Assembly: GCA_029007035.1 (NCBI GenBank)
Contig: JAQXHC010000049.1
Coordinates: forward strand, 1 to 64,000
Length of the DNA stretch: 64,000 nt
Direction of reading: 5' to 3'
Source of the DNA: Oscillospiraceae bacterium
GTDB taxonomy: Bacteria > Bacillota > Clostridia > Oscillospirales > Ruminococcaceae
Shown here in pieces: positions 48,302 through 50,010 of this stretch. The notes under the pieces are model-generated. The model made no database searches, was not told the origin of the DNA, and saw only the letters and a list, made by a program, of their open reading frames with translations. The position numbers were made by a program, and so were the translations under genes. Each line of letters begins with the position of its first letter. The stretch's first letter is position 1.

Positions 48302-48342
48302 ACAAAAAACGGCGTCCTACTAACGTAAGACGCCGTTTGAAT
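48302..48342 (-). terminator. Intrinsic terminator downstream of rubrerythrin
   Basis: AAACGGCGTC-loop-GACGCCGTTT with T-run on the - strand. Confidence 0.75.
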
Positions 48343-48367: not shown

Positions 48368-48919
48368 TTACTTGAAGTATCTGTTGAGAAGTCCCTCGAA
48401 AGCCTTGCCATGTCTTGCTTCGTCCTTTGCCATTTCATGAACTGTGTCGTGAATAGCATCGAGGTTAAGCTCTTTTGCTCTCTTAGCGAGGTCAAGCTTG
48501 CCCTGTGTAGCGCCATGTTCTGCGGCAACTCTCTTTTCAAGGTTTTCCTTTGTTGAAGAGGATACAACATCGCCGAGAAGCTCTGCGAACTTAGCAGCGT
48601 GCTCAGCTTCCTCATAAGCAGCCTTTTCCCAGTAAAGTCCGATTTCGGGATAACCCTCTCTGTGTGCAACTCTTGCCATAGCCAGATACATACCGACTTC
48701 TGTGCACTCGCCTGAGAAGTTAGCCTTGAGACCCTCGATAATTTCGGTGTCGGTAACAGCCTTAGCTACACCAACCTCGTGCTCGCAGGCGAAAACAAGC
48801 TTTTCGTCAGCAGCCTTTTCAATGAATTTCGAGCCGGGAACTCCGCACTGAGGACATTTCTCGGGGGGATTGTCACCCTCGTGAACATAGCCGCAAACAG
48901 GACATACATACTTTTTCAT
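48368..48919 (-). CDS. Reverse rubrerythrin (N-terminal rubredoxin domain)
   Basis: N-terminal [29 protein letters not shown]; diiron EXXH motifs in [19 protein letters not shown] and [31 protein letters not shown]. Confidence 0.95.
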
Positions 48920-48958: not shown

Positions 48959-49222
48959 TTAGACTGAATGTTTAACTCTGTCTCTTTCTTCGGCGCGCTT
49001 ACCATTATTGAAGCGCTCTGTTGTGCCGACGAGATAACCTGTTATTCTTCTGATTCTGTCAAAAGGAACATCGGCAAAACTGAATTTAAGGTTTGCGTAA
49101 TCACCGTCGGGAGTAATAGTAAGCTCAGTGATTTCCTTTCCGTGATATTTTTTTCTGCCGTATGCGATGTAGGCATTGATTTCCTCCTGGGGAATTTCTT
49201 CGCCGATAACATTTATCTTCAT
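48959..49222 (-). CDS. Small stand-alone NrdD-like glycyl-radical-domain protein
   Basis: 87 aa ending FDRIRRITGYLVGTTERFNNGKRAEERDRVKHSV; resembles the C-terminal glycyl-radical loop of class III ribonucleotide reductases. Confidence 0.7.
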   Translation of the reverse strand: MKINVIGEEIPQEEINAYIAYGRKKYHGKEITELTITPDGDYANLKFSFADVPFDRIRRITGYLVGTTERFNNGKRAEERDRVKHSV

Positions 49223-49312
49223 ATTCAGCACCTCCGAATAATTATCTGAAAAATCAATAAAACAGCTTGACTTTTCGTTGTGTTTATTGTATCATAAAAG
49301 ACGAAAAAAATC

Positions 49313-49328
49313 TGTTGCATTTGCAACA
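49313..49328. promoter_or_regulatory. Perfect palindrome TGTTGCA-TT-TGCAACA, candidate Crp/Fnr-family operator
   Basis: Perfect 7-bp half-sites between promoter TTGACT(49267)-N17-TATCAT(49290) and the ATG of the Crp/Fnr-like gene. Confidence 0.65.
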
Positions 49329-49344: not shown

Positions 49345-50010
49345 ATGAAACCCGAAGAAAACATATTATTCAAAGGAATATGCACAGACAATTGCATCCG
49401 TATGCTTGGCTGTTTTAATGTCGAGATAAAGAAATATCATACGGGCAGCTGCGTAGCCGATTTTTCAAAGGCGAGCGATAAAATCGGAATAATTTTAAGC
49501 GGAACGGCGGTTACAGTAAAGTATGATATAAACGGGGTAAGAACGATTATAGAAAAGCTCGGGGAACAGGGGATTTTCGGTGAATTCTTTACGTTTTCCG
49601 GCTCATCGAGAAACTGTATGCAGGTCGTATGCGAGAGCGACTGTGAGATTATGTTTGTTCGGTATTCAGAGCTTACAAAGAGATGCGAAAAGGCGTGTGA
49701 ATGTCACTCGGCAGTGGTACAGAATCTGCTTATGCTCATGTCGGAAAAGGCTATATCGCTGAGCGAGAGGATAGAAGTGCTGAGTCAGCGGACGATCGAG
49801 GACAAGCTCATAAGCTGTCTGCAAATAATCGAGGATAAAACTCCGGCAGGAAAAACTCCGCAGATACCATTTTCAACAACCGCCCTTTCGGACTATCTCT
49901 GTGTGAACCGAAGCGCGCTCCAGAGAGAAATAACAAAGCTAAAAAATCAGGGTGTTCTGACAATTACGAAAAGAAAATTCAGGCTTATGAGAAATCAGGA
50001 TACTGATTGA
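49345..50010 (+). CDS. Crp/Fnr family transcriptional regulator
   Basis: cNMP-like domain ...GIILSGTAVTVKYDINGVRTIIEKLGEQGIFGEFFTF; wHTH TTALSDYLCVNRSALQREITKLKNQGVL. Confidence 0.9.
   Translation: MKPEENILFKGICTDNCIRMLGCFNVEIKKYHTGSCVADFSKASDKIGIILSGTAVTVKYDINGVRTIIEKLGEQGIFGEFFTFSGSSRNCMQVVCESDCEIMFVRYSELTKRCEKACECHSAVVQNLLMLMSEKAISLSERIEVLSQRTIEDKLISCLQIIEDKTPAGKTPQIPFSTTALSDYLCVNRSALQREITKLKNQGVLTITKRKFRLMRNQDTD

Follow-up and report, generated by a model that had tools for sequence, protein, structure and literature searches.

Small proteins that carry a spare glycyl-radical domain are known as partners of pyruvate formate-lyase (PFL), namely GrcA/YfiD of E. coli and Y06I of phage T4 (PMC8683613). 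PFL is cut by oxygen at its radical glycine, and YfiD repeats the strand that the cut enzyme retains, the residual segment being needed for recognition (PMC8683613). PFL is the only enzyme for which such spare parts have been demonstrated; other glycyl-radical enzymes may have them (PMC8683613). In class III ribonucleotide reductase (RNR), NrdD, the radical residue of the Prevotella copri enzyme is Gly711 (PMC11226230). A two-chain RNR is represented by the split class II enzyme NrdJa/NrdJb (cited in PMC9669993), in which C-terminal functions reside on the second chain. Neither a split class III RNR nor a spare part for NrdD was found described in the open-access literature, a scope outside which most subscription papers lie, and the novelty of both is provisional. 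A large survey of RNR dropped the sequences under 400 residues (PMC9531940), so that small radical pieces would have been invisible to it.

The stretch of DNA analysed here as a whole, referred to as the window, comprises 64,000 nucleotides of the genome of an Oscillospiraceae bacterium. It encodes an 87-residue protein, hereafter the mini protein, in which the first-pass annotation had recognized a glycyl-radical-like sequence resembling the C-terminus of NrdD. The features of its gene are the following.

48959..49222, minus strand: gene of the stand-alone glycyl-radical mini protein, 87 residues, stop codon included (open reading frame with ATG start, profile matches, homologues)
49073..49222, minus strand: N-terminal domain, residues 1-50, predicted beta-alpha-beta-beta, cysteine-free (AlphaFold2, pLDDT ~80)
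48962..49072, minus strand: residues 51-87, glycyl-radical segment with homology to the end of NrdD (Pfam NRDD, NCBIfam NrdD, PDB 8p23)
49037..49039, minus strand: codon of Gly62, the predicted radical glycine (alignment with Gly711 of P. copri NrdD; invariance)
49230..49235, minus strand: ribosome-binding site GGAGGT of the mini gene (sequence)

The reading frame proposed in the first-pass annotation is real, with its ATG and its ribosome-binding site on the minus strand, and the C-terminus quoted there is also real, except that its last two residues were missing, the protein ending in ...DRVKHSV. The RITGY motif was rightly taken as NrdD-like; the threonine, which had been noted as a departure from the C/S/A of the glycyl-radical signature, is no oddity, fused NrdDs having RITGY too. 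Pfam NRDD matches residues 54-85 over the final 30 columns of the profile (31.8 bits, E=8e-8, against a curated cut-off of 26.2 bits), and the NCBIfam NrdD models match the protein at E=2e-11. The same residues align with P. copri NrdD (PDB 8p23), whose C-terminus is the sole solved sequence relative of the mini protein at E < 0.001; the family profile of the mini protein finds the sequence of this structure at E=2.4e-11. From the alignment, and given an offset of four residues in chain numbering, Gly62 would be the equivalent of the radical Gly711 (PMC11226230). The hexapeptide RITGYL occurs a single time across all six frames of the window. The C-terminal glycyl-radical motif of NrdD is hence present in the mini protein, and NRDD was the sole Pfam family obtained at E up to 1; no radical domain of PFL type matched, for which reason PFL was rejected as the partner. 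The ten-stranded NrdD barrel with its thiyl cysteine, whose absence had already been pointed out, and the zinc site that opens the NrdD radical domain are both missing from these 87 residues, which include no cysteine. Judged from its sequence, the mini protein repeats, as a chain of its own, the tail of class III RNR that bears the radical.

The N-terminal domain had no Pfam match that would relate its residues 1-50 to a known family. A Foldseek search of the PDB with the mini protein gave nothing below E=0.001; the best matches were HPF/YfiA ribosome hibernation factors, a likeness that, at E values of 0.28 and above, is non-significant and was taken as chance or topology only. In the AlphaFold2 model the radical part is uncertain (pLDDT ~50).

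The mini protein resembles GrcA/YfiD and Y06I in its architecture, each being a short separate chain in which an N-terminal part precedes a C-terminal glycyl-radical segment, and this segment repeats the retained strand; as for GrcA/YfiD, the activase of the partner enzyme is encoded in the same genome. It differs from GrcA/YfiD in that its radical segment is of NrdD and not of PFL type, in that its N-terminal domain has a predicted order which the disordered one of YfiD lacks, and in that some lineages appear permanently dependent on it, its role in repair being a putative one. With P. copri NrdD it has in common the glycine-bearing radical loop and the tail that ends the protein, but it is a separate chain, without the zinc site and with an unrelated N-terminal domain. 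NrdJa/NrdJb is likewise made of two chains; however, it is a class II enzyme without glycyl radical, whereas the mini protein carries the radical segment and can be encoded far from nrdD.

Proteins of the 87-residue type were found at 80 loci from named genomes and at about 30 from the same taxonomic family, and about 13 of 391 sampled genomes of the class, from six families, carry one. Gly62 and 14 other positions are invariant among 52 diverse full-length homologues. The gene is under purifying selection: over 36 orthologues the overall pN/pS is 0.19, and it is lower in the radical part (0.11) than in the N-terminal domain (0.25). Each of the 27 family genomes with a mini gene that were tested encodes a close NrdD, as do 27 of 30 further named genomes; the three named genomes in which the NrdD match was missing are probably incomplete metagenome-assembled genomes (MAGs). 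Conservation of the glycine and association with NrdD, two of the three points on which the first-pass annotation had made its proposal depend, are both borne out, and nothing that contradicts the third, structural similarity to the glycyl-radical loop, was found. In several lineages the 87-residue gene sits between a complete nrdD and nrdG.

The family also includes paralogues in which the glycine is lost, RITGY being replaced by RSADY, RATDY or RSTDY, and the N-terminal domain is kept (L003:1501-1776, L030, L031, L152); two of them adjoin rsmA/ksgA. None was seen alongside a truncated NrdD. Their existence indicates that some members of the family do something else, and they are possibly regulators. 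In another family of the class, a variant with a divergent N-terminal domain lies right behind a complete nrdD (L233, L234). In a phage collection there were two matches over most of the mini protein, on unannotated human-faecal contigs labelled 'Bacteriophage sp.'; the homologue on contig MT838827.1 (L302) is 54% identical over the whole protein, and both contigs are possibly bacterial DNA.

A strong indication of what the mini protein does came from 11 genomes of the family in which the close NrdD ends without a radical segment. The NRDD profile, of 562 positions, is covered from 1 to 532-540 by the truncated NrdD and from 532/533 to 562 by the stand-alone protein, whose match in genome G086 falls just below the curated cut-off. 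In all 11 the mini relative is the sole radical segment matching the close NrdD, and in all 11 it keeps the glycine. Only G065 has in addition a second, complete and divergent NrdD; G035 has a further sub-threshold NRDD match (E=0.009, positions 430-516), without radical end. No class I or class II RNR was found in any of the 11, among which G144, G071, G035, G091, G030, G015 and G095 are 96-100% complete. The truncated NrdDs retain the MGCR motif and the zinc cysteines and stop 18-24 residues past the last zinc-site cysteine, while in 80 of 82 intact NrdDs the radical glycine is located 17-20 residues past that cysteine; the truncated proteins therefore end approximately where oxygen cuts glycyl-radical enzymes. 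A programmed frameshift or readthrough of the truncated nrdD was discarded, no RITGYL being encoded in the three forward frames of the next 900 nt.

The truncation seems not to be a single event. On a quick tree of 126 NrdD bodies, the change counts of which do not distinguish gain from loss, it requires 7 label changes or more, no fewer than 6 of which are forced by supported branches, and by these sequences truncation of NrdD arose repeatedly. There are also mixed genera, represented by G030 and G142 and by G015 and G133, each pair with one truncated and one intact NrdD, and all four genomes encode the stand-alone protein. Among genomes many of which are MAGs, the 87-residue type is present in 11 of 12 without an attached or adjacent NrdD radical segment versus 14 of 52 with an intact NrdD, the latter two figures being tallied by hand and referring to the glycine-bearing type (Fisher p=5e-5); the exception among the 12, with a truncated NrdD and no mini protein, is a genome 55% complete. 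As a control, 48 genomes of the family without a radical-segment match were inspected. Three have the close type of NrdD, one of them truncated and without mini protein (55% complete), one with its own tail and one cut by a contig end.

A different arrangement was found at 39 further loci, where nrdD is split and the radical segment is placed on a short gene of its own, usually followed by nrdG.

L034, L115-L144, L146, L147, L153, L236, L237, L239: loci with split nrdD, short gene and nrdG

Here nrdD ends 30-65 residues past the zinc cysteine, and the short gene has in most cases roughly 45-65 codons and encodes a protein without the 50-residue N-terminal domain. Class I or II RNR is also present in some of these genomes; none was found in G113, which is 99% complete. 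The split class III RNR has several apparent origins. Since the split-type NrdDs are devoid of the retained strand, the comparison suggests that two different routes lead to a two-chain class III RNR.

In the organism of the window, whose assembly amounts to 2.18 Mb and is 87% complete, the situation is that of an intact enzyme. The genome encodes one complete NrdD, followed by nrdG, and the radical segment of the mini protein is 89% identical to the tail of this NrdD. A search that gave matches in control genomes detected neither a class I nor a class II RNR in this one. Because NrdD is intact, the use of a radical in trans is not obligatory here. A second stand-alone mini gene, cut by a contig end, has another nrdG 9 nt past its stop codon.

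L002:988-1488 and 1498-1674: second mini gene and nrdG, apart from the nrdD-nrdG pair

This nrdG located right after the sister gene is suggestive of activation of the mini protein by the own activase of its partner. A third copy is glycine-less, with RSADY in place of RITGY.

The surroundings of the mini gene bear on when it would be expressed, and they contain the following features.

49286..49291, minus strand: predicted -10 element TACAAT (within TATGATACAAT) of the mini promoter (identical ATACAAT, equally spaced from the operator, in 40 of 47 loci)
49313..49328, no strand assigned: predicted operator TGTTGCA-NN-TGCAACA, with its centre at -41.5 relative to the start predicted for the mini transcript
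49345..50010, plus strand: divergent Cys-rich Crp/Fnr-type regulator (cNMP_binding and HTH domains)
48368..48919, minus strand: reverse rubrerythrin (revRbr), 39 nt downstream of the mini gene
48307..48338, minus strand: terminator-like hairpin past revRbr, predicted end of the mini-revRbr unit

Both neighbours named in the first-pass annotation were recovered. The regulator is a real gene, for which the ATG at 49345 is preferred as start over the TTG at 49267. The protein encoded on the same strand 39 nt downstream carries a RUBY_RBDX domain at residues 4-32 and then a rubrerythrin domain at 63-177, that is, the rubredoxin domain ahead of the diiron domain, as a reverse rubrerythrin does. The neighbourhood is conserved as well: of 53 Ruminococcus-type loci, 49 have revRbr behind the mini gene and 45 have the divergent Crp/Fnr gene. 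No terminator was found in the 39-nt gap, and a strong one lies after revRbr. The palindrome TGTTGC-N4-GCAACA precedes the mini gene in 47 loci, four of them from other genera, and in none of eight Ruminococcus loci that have no regulator gene; in 40 of the 47, ATACAAT is found at one fixed distance from it. The position of the operator centre was counted from the -10 element, and -41.5 is the classical position of a class II Crp/Fnr activator. Of seven genomes searched for the exact site, six have it nowhere else. The own genome has just one more exact TGTTGCAnnTGCAACA site (C2:7371-7386, L219), which lies between a gene for an Rrf2-like regulator and one for a ferredoxin-like protein with two 4Fe-4S motifs, both named by sequence. 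Six cysteines of the regulator (17, 23, 100, 114, 118 and 186) are nearly invariant, which makes an iron-sulfur redox sensor plausible. HcpR was rejected as the identity of this regulator, the conserved site TGTTGCAnnTGCAACA mismatching the published consensus sequences wTGTGAnnnnnnTCACAw, TTGACnnnnGTCAA and GTAACnnnnGTTAC (PMC1274295); other HcpR motifs, not printed, have been reported in some Clostridia (PMC1274295). The gene order, the lack of an internal terminator and the predicted common promoter point to co-regulation of the mini protein with peroxide defence.

Taken together, the mini protein is best explained, with a probability of about 0.8, as a detached glycyl-radical domain for class III RNR, which would act as a GrcA-like replacement of the tail where NrdD is intact. 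NrdG would convert Gly62 to its radical form; inserted into the NrdD barrel, the radical loop would then produce, in trans, the thiyl radical of the active site. Where a lineage has an NrdD that stops at the position of the glycine, the mini protein would be an obligate radical subunit. On account of the gene-content evidence, the supply of the glycyl radical to NrdD in trans is very likely in the family; that the mini protein is a detachable part is likewise very likely, and that it is a replaceable one is probable. Oxygen cleaves NrdD at the radical glycine. In the own organism, with its complete NrdD, the mini protein would most likely replace the tail of an NrdD cut in this way. Repair of this kind would be its most economical use there and is the best reading, by analogy with YfiD and cut PFL; a RIRRI/ERIKRI-like stretch is present both in the mini protein and in most truncated NrdD tails. 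Expression of the mini protein would depend on activation, by the neighbouring Crp/Fnr-type regulator, of the promoter common with revRbr, and repair is consistent with the link to a Cys-rich regulator and to a peroxide reductase. The spare part imagined in the first-pass annotation gains strong, although indirect, support from the NrdDs that end at the radical glycine and have the mini protein as sole matching radical segment.

Unlikely, although the best of the alternatives, is that the mini protein serves as a regular alternative radical subunit, used depending on conditions and regardless of oxygen cuts, for instance with another allosteric control exerted through its N-terminal domain. 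That domain is predicted to be ordered and is under selection, the lineages with truncated NrdD have no matching radical segment other than the mini protein, and the radical domain attached to NrdD becomes disordered with dATP (PMC11226230), so that an alternative tail could matter. In an intact NrdD, however, its own tail should fill the site, and the location of the Ruminococcus gene beside a peroxide reductase fits damage better than allostery. Far less probable is the decoy, also raised in the first-pass annotation, which would compete for NrdG or block the barrel and thus slow the production of dNTPs during oxidative stress. A decoy does not need the glycine and the residues around it, which are invariant in the 52 homologues, and in 11 genomes the supposed brake would be the only radical segment matching the close NrdD; it is rather the paralogues with RSADY or RATDY, in genomes with intact NrdD, that could be brakes. 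Slightly less probable still is a partner other than NrdD, reached through the N-terminal domain with a borrowed radical tail. The domain has no recognized relative, its likeness to HPF/YfiA being weak and non-significant, but the presence of NrdD in 27 of 27 tested family genomes, the mini genes lying between nrdD and nrdG and a gene content that complements truncated NrdD all argue for NrdD itself. A decaying fragment of an nrdD duplication, such as the loss of the active residue in some relatives might evoke, is hardly credible against a pN/pS of 0.19 (0.11 in the radical part), an invariant glycine, a conserved promoter and a separate N-terminal domain not seen in NrdD.

The detached radical domain for NrdD may have a meaning beyond this locus. 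It is reasonably likely, with less assurance than for the mini protein itself, that class III RNR is modular in Clostridia, with an exchangeable radical subunit that is either a spare part or the sole carrier of the radical, that repair has repeatedly turned into a permanent two-chain enzyme, and that a dedicated Cys-rich Crp/Fnr activator would join it to peroxide defence. The mini protein is a concrete spare-part candidate for the enzyme by which DNA precursors are produced in the absence of oxygen, and the naturally truncated NrdDs offer ready partners for activation in trans, with no need for cutting by oxygen. Moreover, the mini protein could account for the ability of strict anaerobes to resume DNA synthesis once a brief exposure to air is over, without making a new enzyme of 80-90 kDa.
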